A stretch of 39,158 nt of DNA from Chryseosolibacter histidinae (GTDB lineage: Bacteria > Bacteroidota > Bacteroidia > Cytophagales > Cyclobacteriaceae): NCBI RefSeq assembly GCF_018598225.1, contig NZ_JAHESF010000052.1, positions 1-39,158 of the forward strand, given 5' to 3'. The translations under genes and the position numbers were made by a program. The stretch's first letter is position 1; every line of letters begins with the position of its first letter. The notes beneath the pieces are model-generated. The model saw only the letters and a program-made list of their open reading frames with translations. It ran no database searches and was not told the DNA's origin. Below are positions 33,184 to 37,720 of the stretch, piece after piece.

Positions 33184-34740
33184 ATGATCGAGAGAGATGG
33201 CGCCCGCATTAGCCTGTGGCAGGATACTGTACCAGCCTTTGAACCGGCTTCGGTTATATCGAAAGAGAAATACGACGTGGTCATCGCCGGCGGAGGAATG
33301 ACCGGTCTAACCCTGGCCCTGCAGCTGCAACAACACGGCCTGAAATGTATTGTGCTCGAAGCTCAGAACATCGGGTTCGGCACTACCGGAGGAACCACGG
33401 CCCATCTGAACACCCTGCTGGACACGCCTTACACCCGCATCATCAAAAACTTTGGCATGGAGAGCGCCAGGGTGGTGGCCAGCGCAACGAGAGCGGCCCT
33501 TCAGCTCGTCAAAGACAACATCGATCAGTATAATATTTCCTGTGGTTTTGAGGAGGCGCCAGGTTTCCTCTTCTCGCAAACCGACGATCAGCAGAAGGAG
33601 CTGGAAGACATCTATGACGCGTGTGTTGACGTGGGCGTTGAAGTGGAGCTGACCGGTGCCATACCCGTGCCCTTTGCTTTCAACAAGGCCATCAGGATTC
33701 CGCGTCAGGCCCGGTTCCATCCGCTTCGTTACCTGCAGGGCATCGCCGGCGTGTTCGAGAAGGAGGGAGGCGCCATTGTTCAGCATTGCAGGGTGATCAG
33801 TTGTGAAAGGCTGAACGACTCGGGAAAAGTATTAAAGGTGGAAACAAGCGAAGGTAATTTTCTCGCCGACCACCTGGTATATGCCACCCACATTCCGCCC
33901 GGTATCAACATCCTTCACCTGCGTTGCCCCGCCTACCGAAGTTATGCCATCGCTGTGAAGCTGGAAGACGACTCTTATCCCGAAGGACTCATTTACGATA
34001 TGTATGACCCGTATCGCTATTACAGAACGCAGGAGATCGACGGCACCCGTTACCTGATCGCGGGTGGAGAAGATCACAAGACCGGGGAGGAGTCGAATAC
34101 CAGTGGCAGGTTCCTGAAGCTCGAGAGCCATGTGCGGTCGCACTTCAACGTGGCTGAGGTGGTTCACCAGTGGTCGTCACAATATTTTGAACCGGTGGAC
34201 GGGCTTCCGTACATCGGTCATCTGCCGGGCAACCCTGACAATGTTTATGTGGCTACGGGATACGGCGGAAATGGCATTACCTATAGCCACGTGGCGGCAC
34301 TGTTGCTGCGGAGCCTGATCCTGGGGTACGAAAATCCATACGGCGAGGTCTTCCACCCCGGCCGTGTGAAGCCCGTGGCAGGATTTGCGGAATTTGTCAA
34401 ACACAATGCCGATGTGGTGAAACAGCTTGCCGGCAAATGGTTCTCGAAAGAGGAGCTTCATGAGCTCGCAGGGCTGGCGCCGGGTGAAGGAAAAGTAGTA
34501 CAATACGAGGAGCACACCCTGGCATTGTATAAGGACGATGCCGGTGCGCTTCATGCCGTGAACCCGGCCTGTACACACCTGAAATGTTCCGTGCGCTGGA
34601 ATGCGGCGGAAAAATCGTGGGATTGTCCCTGCCACGGCTCTCGTTTCTCCTTTGATGGAGAGGTACTTACAGGCCCTGCCGTCACAAACCTCGAGCCCGC
34701 GGAAATACGTTCGCTGGAGACAGAAGAAAAGATGCGTTAA
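33184..34740 (+). CDS. FAD-dependent oxidoreductase with C-terminal Rieske domain
   Basis: The 518-residue protein has an N-terminal DAO-type FAD domain (dinucleotide site VVIAGGGMTG, Gly36-Gly41; VLEA at the end of the second strand) and a large substrate domain. At about 440-510 comes a Rieske module with the [2Fe-2S] ligands Cys463-x-His465 and Cys481-x-x-His484 (CTHLKC ... CPCHGS). The same fusion is seen in Bacillus YhfW-like proteins. The Rieske cluster should pass electrons to or from FAD; the substrate is unknown. No signal peptide is present. The ATG start at 33184 is well placed. A strong hairpin follows the stop. Confidence 0.92.
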   Translation: MIERDGARISLWQDTVPAFEPASVISKEKYDVVIAGGGMTGLTLALQLQQHGLKCIVLEAQNIGFGTTGGTTAHLNTLLDTPYTRIIKNFGMESARVVASATRAALQLVKDNIDQYNISCGFEEAPGFLFSQTDDQQKELEDIYDACVDVGVEVELTGAIPVPFAFNKAIRIPRQARFHPLRYLQGIAGVFEKEGGAIVQHCRVISCERLNDSGKVLKVETSEGNFLADHLVYATHIPPGINILHLRCPAYRSYAIAVKLEDDSYPEGLIYDMYDPYRYYRTQEIDGTRYLIAGGEDHKTGEESNTSGRFLKLESHVRSHFNVAEVVHQWSSQYFEPVDGLPYIGHLPGNPDNVYVATGYGGNGITYSHVAALLLRSLILGYENPYGEVFHPGRVKPVAGFAEFVKHNADVVKQLAGKWFSKEELHELAGLAPGEGKVVQYEEHTLALYKDDAGALHAVNPACTHLKCSVRWNAAEKSWDCPCHGSRFSFDGEVLTGPAVTNLEPAEIRSLETEEKMR

Positions 34741-34750
34741 CTCCCCCTGG

Positions 34751-34773
34751 CCCCCTCTACTTCGTAGAGGGGG
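34751..34773 (+). terminator. GC-rich hairpin after the FAD/Rieske gene
   Basis: CCCCCTCTAC and GTAGAGGGGG, a perfect 10-bp stem with a 3-base loop, start 10 bp after the stop. A CCCC/GGGG pair outside it would lengthen the fold. The T-run is weak (GGTTTTG), so it may stabilise rather than terminate. Confidence 0.55.
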
Positions 34774-34900
34774 ATAGACGGGGTTTTGTCTAAGATTTCC
34801 TACCTTATATATTCAAATAAGCCCCGGATCATAAAAAACCGCAAAGCCCAGGCAACCCTTTGTTCAAAATGGTTGTATTGGGCTATTAAATGCAGCTCCC

Positions 34901-35464
34901 TTGGAAGGAACAGATGACCGCTTGAGAGAAATTCTGGCCGGATGCAGAAAGCATCACCGGGAGAGCCAACGCCTGCTCTACGAAGAATTCTATGCCTACA
35001 GCATGAGCATCTGCCTCCGTTATGCCGACAACCGCGATGAGGCCGCGGAAATTTTAAACGACGGGTTTATGAAGATATTTACGAACATCAGGCAGTTTGA
35101 CCTTAGCAAACCATTGAAGCCCTGGCTCCGGAAAGTGATGGTGAATACCTCCATCAACCATTACAAGCAAAAACAGCGCGACCTCCAGTCAGAAGAGATG
35201 GAGAACGCCAAACACGAGCAGGAAGCCGAAAGCATCATCTCGGGAATATCGTACCAGGAGATCATCGGCATGCTGCACAAGCTTCCGCCAGCGTACCGTA
35301 CTGTATTCAACCTGTATGTGATCGAAGGATACCGCCATGAAGAGATCGCCAAAATGCTGGGCATCACCGTAGGCACTTCCAAGTCTAACCTGTTCAAGGC
35401 CAAGGAATCGCTGCGTAAAATATTGAACGACTTTTTTGAATCCGACTATGTCGAAAAAAAATGA
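34901..35464 (+). CDS. ECF-type RNA polymerase sigma factor
   Basis: This 187-residue sigma-70 family member has region 2 (about 25-92: YEEFYAYSMSICLRYADNRDEAAEILNDGFMKIF, the -10 recognition helices) and region 4 (about 125-178: LHKLPPAYRTVFNLYVIEGYRHEEIAKMLGITVGTSKSNLFKAKESLRK). It lacks regions 1 and 3, so it is an extracytoplasmic-function sigma. The only plausible start is TTG at 34901, since no in-frame ATG lies upstream before a stop. It overlaps the next gene by 17 bp, indicating translational coupling with its anti-sigma factor. Confidence 0.92.
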   Translation: MEGTDDRLREILAGCRKHHRESQRLLYEEFYAYSMSICLRYADNRDEAAEILNDGFMKIFTNIRQFDLSKPLKPWLRKVMVNTSINHYKQKQRDLQSEEMENAKHEQEAESIISGISYQEIIGMLHKLPPAYRTVFNLYVIEGYRHEEIAKMLGITVGTSKSNLFKAKESLRKILNDFFESDYVEKK

Positions 35465-37268
35465 AGATAGCTTAGAGCGGTTTTTCAGAAAGGCAGTAAC
35501 ACAACACGATACGGCCTTCAGGGAGAACGACTGGCTCAAGATGGAGAAAATGCTGGACGAGAAAGCAGCGGAAAGAGCTGCCTTGCGTCTGACCAATCTC
35601 AAGCGGGTCGGCTATTCCCTGGCGGGCCTTGCAATTATTCTGACCGGAATTTATTTCTTAACGCTGAATGGCAACGCCTCGATGTCCACTGAAGAGGTTT
35701 TGCCCAAACAGATGCAGGTGGCAGCTGGTGAGGAAGCTCCTGTGACGGATCATACAATGGAAAAGCCCGCTGCCGGCCTGCATTCTGCTCAGCCACAAGC
35801 CAATAACGATAGCCAAAAGGAAAGCAATAACACGGAAAGCCTGACGGGGGAAAACCCGGCGACATCCCAGAGCCCGGCTTCGGAAGAAGCGGTCATCCTG
35901 AAAGAAAATAATACAACATCCCTTGCGCAGTCACAGACAAAAATGGCAGACGTTGATAAGGGTACCGCGATCGGCAAACGCCCAATAGAGAAAGGCACTC
36001 AACAGGCGAATGTTTCCGGGCAGTCACAATCAAAAGCGACGGATGTTGACAAGGGTTCAGCGATCAATAAACAACTGATAGAAAAGGGCACAGCTCGAGC
36101 GGATGGTAGCAAGCTGCAGCCTCAACCGCTGCAAGACCTGGCGGATCAAAAAACAGGAACGGGTCGGAAAATGGAAAACACCGGCGATCTGAAAAATACG
36201 GCGATCTCCGTGGTTCCAACAGACAACACCTCGAAAACAGGCCCGTCACGCCAACAACCCGCTGGTGCACTTGAAAATCAGGAGCGTAAGGATGTTGCCG
36301 CGTCCTCAGAAAAAGAAACAGAAGATCTTCAGAAGGCGGCTGACGTAACCAAAAAAACAGGCGCACTGCCTGTAGCGGAAGATCCGTCGCGAATCACAGC
36401 GTTGGATGACCGGGACAAGCAGCGCACACAAGATGAGCAGGCCCGGCAGCAGGTCATTGATCCTGCCACACAAGATCGTGCAGCAAAAACAGCTCCTGCA
36501 GATAATGGCATAGCACCTGAACCCGAAAAAGCCCCGCTCAAGCAAATTGAAAAAGACTCTGTGGCTGCGGCAGAAGCTGTTGAGGAAACAATGCCTCCTG
36601 ACGAGAAACTGAAACCGGTACCTACCCGATGGAATGTAGCGCTTGTGCTGGCTCCTGATTTCAGCAGCACGGCGCTGGAACGTTATACAGCTCCCGGGGA
36701 AGCTTACGGGTTCGCGGTGGGCTACCGGTTTCTCGACAGGTTTACCGTAACCACAGGCCTTGTGAGGAGCACCAAAAAATATGTGGGCTATGGCAGCGAC
36801 TACCAGCCACCGGAAGGATACTGGAACAGGCGCACCAATGGCATCGTGCCTGACGACATTACCGGAAAATGTGGGATCCTGGAGATTCCCCTTGCGGTAC
36901 AGTACGCCTTCAGGCAAAGAGAGAAGTCGCGGATGTATGTTGCCGCGGGAGTCTCCAGCTACATCATGCTCCACGAATCGTACCGTTATTCATTCGATGC
37001 GCCGAATCCGGGAGCGGCCAGGGGATGGTCTACCTCAAAATCATCCAGGTACCCGTTTGCCATCGGGCATGTATCAGCAGCGTATGAAAGAAACCTCTCT
37101 CAACGGTGGGCTATTGGCCTGGAGCCATTTTTAAAGATACCCTTTGCGGGTGTCGGATGGAGCAACGTGGACCTTTATAGCACAGGCGTGTTCGTTAACC
37201 TGCGCTACAGGTTTTTCAGGAAGCAGCAGTTCACTGTACCGGAAGAACGAAAACAACCCATTAAATGA
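35448..37268 (+). CDS. probable dual-membrane-spanning anti-sigma factor (Dma-like): inner-membrane anti-sigma fused to outer-membrane barrel
   Basis: The 606-residue protein starts at ATG 35448, inside the sigma gene. Residues 1-50 are a short acidic/basic cytoplasmic segment with W..ME.ML (DSLERFFRKAVTQHDTAFRENDWLKMEKMLDEK), the place where the sigma factor would bind. Residues 54-72 form one membrane helix (RVGYSLAGLAIILTGIYFL). Residues 73-392 are disordered, rich in Gln, Asp, Lys and Thr, and include a 31-residue tandem duplication. Residues 393-600 look like an eight-strand outer-membrane barrel (WNVALVLAP, GYRFLDRFTVTTGL, FVNLRYRFFRK). A chain of 320 residues is ample to cross the periplasm. 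This matches the Dma architecture described in Bacteroides. There is no signal peptidase site, as required for an inner-membrane anchor. Confidence 0.85.
   Translation: MSKKNEDSLERFFRKAVTQHDTAFRENDWLKMEKMLDEKAAERAALRLTNLKRVGYSLAGLAIILTGIYFLTLNGNASMSTEEVLPKQMQVAAGEEAPVTDHTMEKPAAGLHSAQPQANNDSQKESNNTESLTGENPATSQSPASEEAVILKENNTTSLAQSQTKMADVDKGTAIGKRPIEKGTQQANVSGQSQSKATDVDKGSAINKQLIEKGTARADGSKLQPQPLQDLADQKTGTGRKMENTGDLKNTAISVVPTDNTSKTGPSRQQPAGALENQERKDVAASSEKETEDLQKAADVTKKTGALPVAEDPSRITALDDRDKQRTQDEQARQQVIDPATQDRAAKTAPADNGIAPEPEKAPLKQIEKDSVAAAEAVEETMPPDEKLKPVPTRWNVALVLAPDFSSTALERYTAPGEAYGFAVGYRFLDRFTVTTGLVRSTKKYVGYGSDYQPPEGYWNRRTNGIVPDDITGKCGILEIPLAVQYAFRQREKSRMYVAAGVSSYIMLHESYRYSFDAPNPGAARGWSTSKSSRYPFAIGHVSAAYERNLSQRWAIGLEPFLKIPFAGVGWSNVDLYSTGVFVNLRYRFFRKQQFTVPEERKQPIK
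35928..36113. repeat. 93-bp tandem duplication in the anti-sigma linker
   Basis: Two units (35928-36020 and 36021-36113) each encode 31 residues. Unit 1 contains ADVDKGTAIGKRPIEKG and unit 2 TDVDKGSAINKQLIEKG. The period is a whole number of codons, so the reading frame is kept. Confidence 0.7.
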
Positions 37269-37720
37269 AAACTATAGTCCAAGAGCGATCTGTCGTGAGA
37301 GAGCCGAGCGCCACGCAGAAGAAGTTCTATGAAGATCAGTATGCAATGGTTTCTTTTGTAGAATCCGTTCCCTGCATCAAAGTGAAGTTGTCAGGTGTGC
37401 CGCACAGCAGCGAACACTATCAGTATGTGCATTCCAAGTTACTGGAGTTCATCCACTCCGAGATCGAGAATTACTGCCGGTTGCACCTGCTTACCGACAG
37501 CACACAGGCGGGCCTGGTACTGGATGAAGATCTTTCCTATTATAAAATGAATGTGATCCCCGCCATCGAAAAAGCCGGGATCCGGTATCACGCCATCGTG
37601 ATCCCGCAGAGCCTGTTCGGAAGATTGTTCTTCCAGGAAATATCATTATCAACCAAAAAACTCAAGGTAGCTTATTTTAATACGATCAGCGGAGCGTGTA
37701 AATGGCTTAAGAACAGATGA
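37265..37720 (+). CDS. STAS/SpoIIAA-like protein coupled to the anti-sigma gene
   Basis: The 151-residue cytoplasmic protein starts at ATG 37265, overlapping the barrel gene stop by 4 bp (ATGA). The C-terminal half follows the pattern of SpoIIAA-like/STAS proteins of Bacteroidota: LLTDSTQAGLVLDEDLSYYKMNVIPAIEKAGIRYHAIVIPQSLFGR, then KVAYFNTISGACKWLKNR. No serine phosphorylation motif typical of SpoIIAA is evident, so the family link is structural-pattern only. The position in an operon with a sigma and an anti-sigma suggests a role as antagonist, adaptor or target, but this is inference. Confidence 0.7.
   Translation: MKTIVQERSVVREPSATQKKFYEDQYAMVSFVESVPCIKVKLSGVPHSSEHYQYVHSKLLEFIHSEIENYCRLHLLTDSTQAGLVLDEDLSYYKMNVIPAIEKAGIRYHAIVIPQSLFGRLFFQEISLSTKKLKVAYFNTISGACKWLKNR

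Follow-up and report, generated by a model that had tools for sequence, protein, structure and literature searches.

The 39,158-nucleotide stretch analysed here (the window; Chryseosolibacter histidinae, contig NZ_JAHESF010000052.1) carries an operon whose first two genes probably form a Dma (Reo)-type sigma/anti-sigma switch that would control extracytoplasmic lipoproteins, some of them redox-related. The first gene (34901..35464, + strand) has a TTG start and encodes an extracytoplasmic function (ECF) sigma factor of 187 amino acids, assigned by Pfam (Sigma70_r2, E 3.9e-10; Sigma70_r4_2, E 1.8e-16) and by its place in an ECF tree. The second gene (35448..37268, + strand) encodes a Dma/Reo-type dual-membrane anti-sigma protein of 606 amino acids, recognised from its open reading frame (ORF), its hydropathy and its homologues. 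It begins at the ATG at 35448 and overlaps the sigma gene by 17 bp, and the ORFs thus confirm the coordinates and overlap given in an earlier, sequence-only reading of this DNA (the original prediction); the mechanical ORF starts at a TTG 12 bp upstream of that ATG. The gene order, the domain architecture, the kinship with Dma, the promoter motif and the genes behind that motif are computed from the DNA.

The anti-sigma protein consists of four parts. The N-terminal cytoplasmic anti-sigma domain (residues 1-52; 35448..35603, + strand), which presumably binds the sigma factor, is covered together with the helix by a profile of alignment columns 1-100. It is followed by a single inner-membrane helix (about residues 53-74; 35604..35669, + strand), a disordered periplasmic tether (about residues 75-390; 35670..36617, + strand; length 307 by script) and a C-terminal eight-stranded outer-membrane barrel (residues 395-589; 36630..37214, + strand). 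The hydropathy profile contains one hydrophobic segment, at residues ~54-72, and the linker behind it is polar. An AlphaFold2 model, built on an 18-row homologue alignment, contains a helix at residues 26-73, a region (residues 78-368) that is almost entirely below 50 in predicted local distance difference test (pLDDT) score, and eight long strands and one short strand between residues 395 and 589, with a pLDDT mostly above 90. The overall scores of the model are modest (pLDDT 61; predicted template modelling score, pTM, 0.45) because the 300-residue linker is disordered, as expected. Among the top Foldseek matches of the model are OmpA (9fzd_A; E 1.7e-8; template modelling score, TMt, 0.72), NspA (1p4t; TMt 0.76), Ail and OmpX, interspersed with the larger, 10-strand barrels of Pla and OmpT; a porin from Legionella is also on the list, and the root-mean-square deviation is at least 4.7. 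Structure prediction thus recovers the helix, the linker and the eight-stranded barrel that had been proposed, with a linker of about 300 residues, and it places the barrel at the C-terminal end; the lack of one in the last 200 residues would have spoken against the proposal. On this model, the protein would be placed in both the inner and the outer membrane.

The same fusion recurs behind a sigma gene across many genomes, and it is therefore not a product of chance. Homologues were matched (E 0.001) in 18 of the 59 genomes of the window's relatives, and a profile of the 18 homologues matched 97 of 392 phylum genomes at 1e-5, the source genome being included in both counts; many weaker matches among the 97 span only the N-terminal part and the linker. 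The loci yielded 153 distinct sigma genes, or 151 after L021 and L059 were set aside as duplicate loci. A locus was called Dma-type when the protein after the sigma factor matched the N-terminal profile below 1e-3, and 49 of the 151 loci did so; most of the 49 were fetched by resemblance to the window protein, and the counts describe the family rather than a random sample. Each of the 49 proteins contains a hydrophobic stretch whose highest mean over 19 residues exceeds 1.0 (1.5 in 46 of them), and the N-terminal side of the helix is the more positively charged flank in 42. The Dma-type gene overlaps its sigma gene in 34 loci, lies 0-10 bp behind it in 14 and lies farther away in 1. A barrel-profile match below 1e-3 is found in 44 proteins, the window protein included, and their linkers measure 133-323 residues (median 160.5) compared with 307 in the window protein; the five proteins without such a match are the Bacteroides-like Dma proteins of L062, L063 and L082 and the proteins of L115 and L075. 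An in-frame ATG before the conserved sigma start is absent in 38 of 47 scorable Dma-type loci versus 19 of 64 other ECF loci (2 and 38 loci, respectively, were unscorable). Since the sigma genes mostly lack such an ATG, the sigma factor may be translated weakly relative to its anti-sigma partner.

The source genome contains further proteins of this kind. The pairs L115 (G000:C21:129000-134500; 611 amino acids, barrel supported by Pfam) and L137 (G000:C36:87500-92500; 425 amino acids, barrel recognised by eye only) both have a dual-membrane look, and L075/L098 (G000:C26:98504-99190) encodes a 248-residue relative that retains the N-terminal domain, the helix and the linker and gives no barrel match.

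Is the tether a physical connection at all? If the linker were cut constitutively, the barrel and the anti-sigma domain would act as two separate proteins with no tether between them. A disordered linker of 300 residues is an easy protease target, its sequence is unconserved across the 18-row alignment, and the barrel-less L075 protein of the source genome demonstrates that the barrel can be lost. However, the fusion is kept in 44 of the 49 Dma-type loci, a count that is favoured by the fetching of most loci by whole-protein similarity, and no linker is shorter than 133 residues, as a constraint on reach would give. We consider constitutive cutting very improbable.

The sequence evidence for counting the window protein among the Dma class is good. 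A Dma protein has been defined as one in which a sigma-binding domain at the N-terminus is followed by a helix, a disordered tether and a barrel, its gene lying beside an ECF21 sigma gene, and dma2 is surrounded by BT_1559 (das2), BT_1557 (DUF4943), BT_1556 (DUF4858) and BT_1555, which is likened to enoyl-ACP reductases or nitronate monooxygenases (PMC13088901). A DUF4943 search of the 392 genomes returned three matches. Two of them, L062 and L063, exhibit a dma2-like operon order consisting of the sigma gene, Dma, DUF4943, one more ORF and a nitronate-monooxygenase-like gene (the last by eye), and the third, L064, lacks a sigma gene. When the N-terminal profile was compared with 4807 ORFs, it matched the Dma proteins of L062 (8.8e-7) and L063 (9.3e-5) and found a third Dma, L082 (1.8e-6), which has a nigD gene opposite; the best score of a partner behind any other ECF gene was 0.022. 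We recognised these comparison proteins by a nigD neighbour or by the gene order published for the operon; they are not the sequences of the published strains, and the label Bacteroides-like for their genomes is our inference. Alignment with hhalign paired the family barrel with the dma2 barrel at 97% probability and left the N-terminus unaligned. In G293 (L177:990-3700), a NigD gene faces a Dma gene with its sigma gene, and a LysR/OxyR-like regulator gene lies beyond the NigD gene (by eye).

The sigma factors group in the same manner. A quick ECF tree was built from 148 of the 153 sigma factors; L021, L059, L005, L168 and L172 were left out, and the sigma factor of genome G001 is hence missing. 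Its 49 Dma-type rows, which are the 49 loci minus L005 plus L137 (added on architecture), constitute one side of one branch (support 79) with a single label change, and they are nested in a 98-supported clade of 51 rows, the extra rows being L105 and L147 of the source genome. The window's subclade, which is starred, comprises 43 rows and is separate from the three Bacteroides-like rows. Thus, the window sigma factor clusters with the syntenic das2 inside the 98-supported clade. The N-terminal profile, the adjacency of the genes and the sigma clade show that the original prediction was right in kind when it likened the protein to Dma, and they support its coupling to the sigma gene. That prediction also held that the locus would extend the family to a distant, probably Cytophagales, lineage. 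The founding 2024 paper on Dma reportedly placed the family throughout the Bacteroidota phylum. A Cytophagales origin is supported by inference, given that the best named match is Chryseolinea sp. H1M3-3, from a Cytophagales genus. The extension adds little because Dma is already described as a class that is exclusive to the Bacteroidota (PMC13088901).

Which genes would such a sigma factor transcribe? A predicted sigma promoter, AGGCAACC-N16-TGTAT (34850..34878, + strand), ends 22 bp before the TTG of the sigma gene. Upstream DNA of 250 bp or more is available for 40 Dma-type loci, L137 not being one of them. Of these 40, 35 carry GCAACC within 320 bp upstream of the sigma domain (10 of 101 for other ECF genes), and GCAACC-N17-GT[AC] is found upstream in 26 (0 of 101). 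With L021 in place of L005, the corresponding counts are 36/41 and 27/41, and letter-shuffled upstream regions produced the promoter motif in at most 2 loci. The motif was picked after the upstream regions had been viewed, and these counts are therefore descriptive, with the genome scans serving as the test. Several carriers hold near forms of the motif, such as AAGCAACC, and the two dma2 loci share a different element, GCAGCA-N14-GCGTCTAA (by eye). A generic promoter scan returned 5 sites against a shuffle mean of 2.6 (standard deviation 1.8), none of them at the motif. Two other forms of the pattern were rejected. A first motif, GGCAACC-N16-TGTAY, had seven sites in the source genome, four of which were inside genes and disappeared when a leading A was required, and the looser AGGCAACC-N17-GTAY had 15 sites in four genomes, 8 of which preceded neither a sigma gene nor a lipoprotein gene.

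The genome scans used AGGCAACC-N16-TGTAY. Genomes G000, G001, G002 and G017 contain seven sites, located before four sigma genes, one CHRD gene and two Lipoprotein_15 genes. Fourteen further carriers contain 14 sites, spread over nine of these genomes: five before sigma genes, two before CHRD genes, three before plastocyanin genes, one before a Lipoprotein_15 gene, two inside opposite-strand genes and one geneless. The 18 carrier genomes together hold 21 sites, of which nine precede sigma genes, nine precede CHRD, Lipoprotein_15 or plastocyanin lipoprotein genes and three lie elsewhere. In the 59 relatives, 22 sites were found, including 13 not met before (10 in nine non-carrier genomes and 3 in carriers); 11 of the 13 are inside genes and 2 precede unrelated genes. 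Overall, a sigma or lipoprotein gene follows 18 of 24 sites in carriers versus 0 of 10 in non-carriers, defined as relatives without a detected homologue (E 0.001). As controls, the pattern read backwards gave three sites in the 14 genomes and three in the 59 relatives. When the spacer was shortened by 3 bases, the 18 carrier genomes yielded four sites, of which three fell inside genes and none preceded a sigma or lipoprotein gene; this shorter pattern read backwards gave five. This distribution suggests that the motif is read by the sigma factor of the Dma-type pair.

The source genome contains three such sites, including the sigma promoter. The second site lies 101 bp before a CHRD lipoprotein gene and is identical to the sigma promoter in 26 of 29 letters. 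Behind the CHRD gene is a 303-codon ORF that encodes an SprB repeat and, close to the end, a CX4CH segment; we call this end cytochrome-like from the CX4CH segment and from sub-threshold Pfam matches of related proteins, the protein itself having no cytochrome match. The third site lies 63 bp before a Lipoprotein_15 gene. In L007, L011, L012, L014 and L017, the gene next behind Dma encodes a protein with 36-38% identity to this SprB-repeat protein. The Lipoprotein_15 protein shares 37-47% identity with the proteins encoded at that place in L029 and L031, and 57% with one in the Chryseolinea genome G017 that has the same promoter. In other loci, the gene next behind Dma encodes CHRD (L010, 381 bp on), a PSCyt1 cytochrome (L039 and L046), plastocyanin (L030 and L048), a Rieske protein (L047 and L054) or YceI (L009 and L056), and the remaining loci have genes without a family, or none within reach, behind Dma. 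The predicted target proteins begin with lipoprotein-like signal sequences (by eye). The redox character of some target families also fits an alternative in which the barrel is a mere anchor and the stress that is sensed is oxidative rather than outer-membrane damage. However, five of the six invariant columns in the 18-row alignment fall in the barrel, and Reo in Phocaeicola vulgatus responds to envelope-acting toxins. We regard the oxidative alternative as unlikely.

Several observations weigh against a lipoprotein switch of the Dma type with its own promoter. As to the protein, the Pfam match of the barrel (OMP_b-brl_2, E 0.011) is below the cut-off, such that Pfam alone misses the barrel, and the match to the dma2 barrel is weak evidence of kinship because such barrels are common. 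In the tree, L105 and L147, ECF factors of the source genome with short partners, fall inside the 98-supported clade, and L105 even carries GCAACC-N16-GTC upstream. Concerning the promoter, the exact spacing is present in only 26 of the 40 loci, and GCAACC was not seen upstream in L023, in the three Bacteroides-like Dma loci or in L115 and L137 of the source genome; the motif thus marks a subclade and not the whole family. In the scans, the 18 scanned genomes had been selected for being carriers, no exact site occurs in 5 of the further 14, and an exact site before a sigma or lipoprotein gene is found in only 5 of the 18 carriers among the 59 relatives (G000, G001, G002, G006 and G017). Furthermore, five of the nine lipoprotein sites come from one genus, g142 (G207, G138, G282, G405 and G341), and the YceI, PSCyt1 and Rieske genes are linked by position alone.

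The original prediction also mentioned that Dma affects vesiculation in Bacteroides thetaiotaomicron, and this link does not carry over to the window. Vesiculation via envelope lipoproteins might be the main output of the locus, with the redox flavour of the targets being incidental, given that the architecture and the kin are the same as in Bacteroides thetaiotaomicron and that the predicted targets carry lipoprotein-like signals, NigD proteins also being described as surface lipoproteins (PMC9308784, PMC13114119). The Dma1 effect, however, requires NigD1 (PMC13088901), and NigD_N, the sole NigD model searched, had no match at E 0.01 in any of 6 genomes from the window's order, the source genome among them, or in the 1 genome from f42, compared with matches in 2 of 2 Bacteroides-like genomes. 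Moreover, the window's promoter element differs from that before the syntenic das2 genes, and a NigD-like gene is absent among the predicted targets seen. Instead, the promoter evidence suggests a different regulon. A function in vesiculation is not supported, and we judge it quite unlikely as the main output.

We therefore return to a Dma-type switch for lipoproteins and propose the following mechanism. In the published relatives, the anti-sigma protein restrains the sigma factor, envelope stress is thought to relieve this restraint (PMC13088901, PMC9308784, PMC13114119), and members including Reo in Phocaeicola vulgatus respond to envelope-acting toxins (PMC9308784, PMC13114119). The window system has the same parts, and we infer sigma binding, a signal and sigma release for it as well. 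The N-terminal ~50 residues would keep the ECF sigma factor bound at the inner membrane, where the helix would anchor the protein, and the ~300 disordered residues would span the periplasm to the eight-stranded barrel seated in the outer membrane. When either the outer membrane or the assembly of the barrel is disturbed, the tether would change, most likely by being cut, and free the sigma factor. Once free, the sigma factor would use AGGCAACC-N16-TGTAY promoters to transcribe a small number of lipoprotein genes as well as the operon that encodes it. In the source genome, the targets beyond the operon would be the CHRD lipoprotein gene and its downstream neighbour, the SprB-repeat gene with the cytochrome-like end, together with the Lipoprotein_15 gene; in relatives, they would also include plastocyanin-like lipoprotein genes. 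A more specific idea is that the Dma subclade that shares this promoter code with f42, which is placed outside the window's class, is a dedicated circuit that replenishes extracytoplasmic redox and metal-binding lipoproteins, with the barrel reporting outer-membrane integrity or oxidation. We offer this idea tentatively and lean slightly against it.

The predicted promoter and regulon may be new. The open literature searched, with most subscription journals outside its coverage, yielded nothing on the regulon or the motif, and the ECF promoters described for Flavobacterium are different ones (PMC9723704). A predicted promoter that comes with a small set of recurring targets beyond the gut Bacteroidales would be of value as a reporter for the Dma signal in other Bacteroidota. 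The predicted functions, extracytoplasmic redox and metal lipoproteins, differ from the output known to date, which comprises NigD genes and genes for polysaccharide utilisation.

A third operon gene (37265..37720, + strand; 151 amino acids) overlaps the anti-sigma gene by 4 bp and has counterparts at the same position in the three nearest relatives (L003, L004 and L005; 57, 61 and 43% identity). Pfam and NCBIfam searches returned no significant match for its product, the AlphaFold2 model is poor (pLDDT 44), and a PDB search retrieved no relative (best E 0.63); a STAS-like fold, considered from the strand-helix order, was dropped. Upstream of the sigma gene, 33184-34740 encodes a flavin adenine dinucleotide-dependent oxidoreductase with a C-terminal Rieske domain, a domain that can be compared with the Rieske genes behind Dma in L047 and L054. 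Between this gene and the sigma promoter, a stable hairpin at 34743-34783 (-27.7 kcal/mol for 34738-34800; z -2.45) is possibly the end of the upstream transcript. A generic terminator scan did not list the hairpin and found fewer sites in total than in shuffles. The source genome measures 8.04 Mb and has 80 matches to the ECF sigma model, fragments included.

How does the window system compare with those already known? It shares with Dma2/Das2 of Bacteroides thetaiotaomicron (BT_1558/BT_1559) the sigma-binding N-terminus, the helix, the tether, the barrel and the adjacent ECF gene. It differs in the linker, which is ~307 residues long, whereas that encoded by the syntenic dma2 in L062 has roughly 130 (by eye), and in its promoter element and predicted regulon; the source genome also gave no DUF4943 match, and NigD_N was not found. 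With EcfO/Reo of Bacteroides fragilis and Phocaeicola vulgatus, the system shares the order of a sigma gene followed by a large anti-sigma gene, a predicted outer-membrane barrel and the proposed release of the sigma factor under envelope stress (PMC9308784, PMC13114119). The output of EcfO/Reo consists of nigD genes and a longer O-antigen, whereas CHRD, SprB-repeat and Lipoprotein_15 genes are predicted for the window. To relay the state of an outer-membrane barrel to an ECF sigma factor is also the task of FecI/FecR/FecA-type cell-surface signalling, which uses three separate proteins with a large TonB-dependent receptor. To our knowledge, Dma/Reo proteins are the sole anti-sigma factors proposed to contact both membranes. 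In contrast to the FecI/FecR/FecA type, the window system would accomplish this relay with one polypeptide that ends in a plain eight-stranded barrel.

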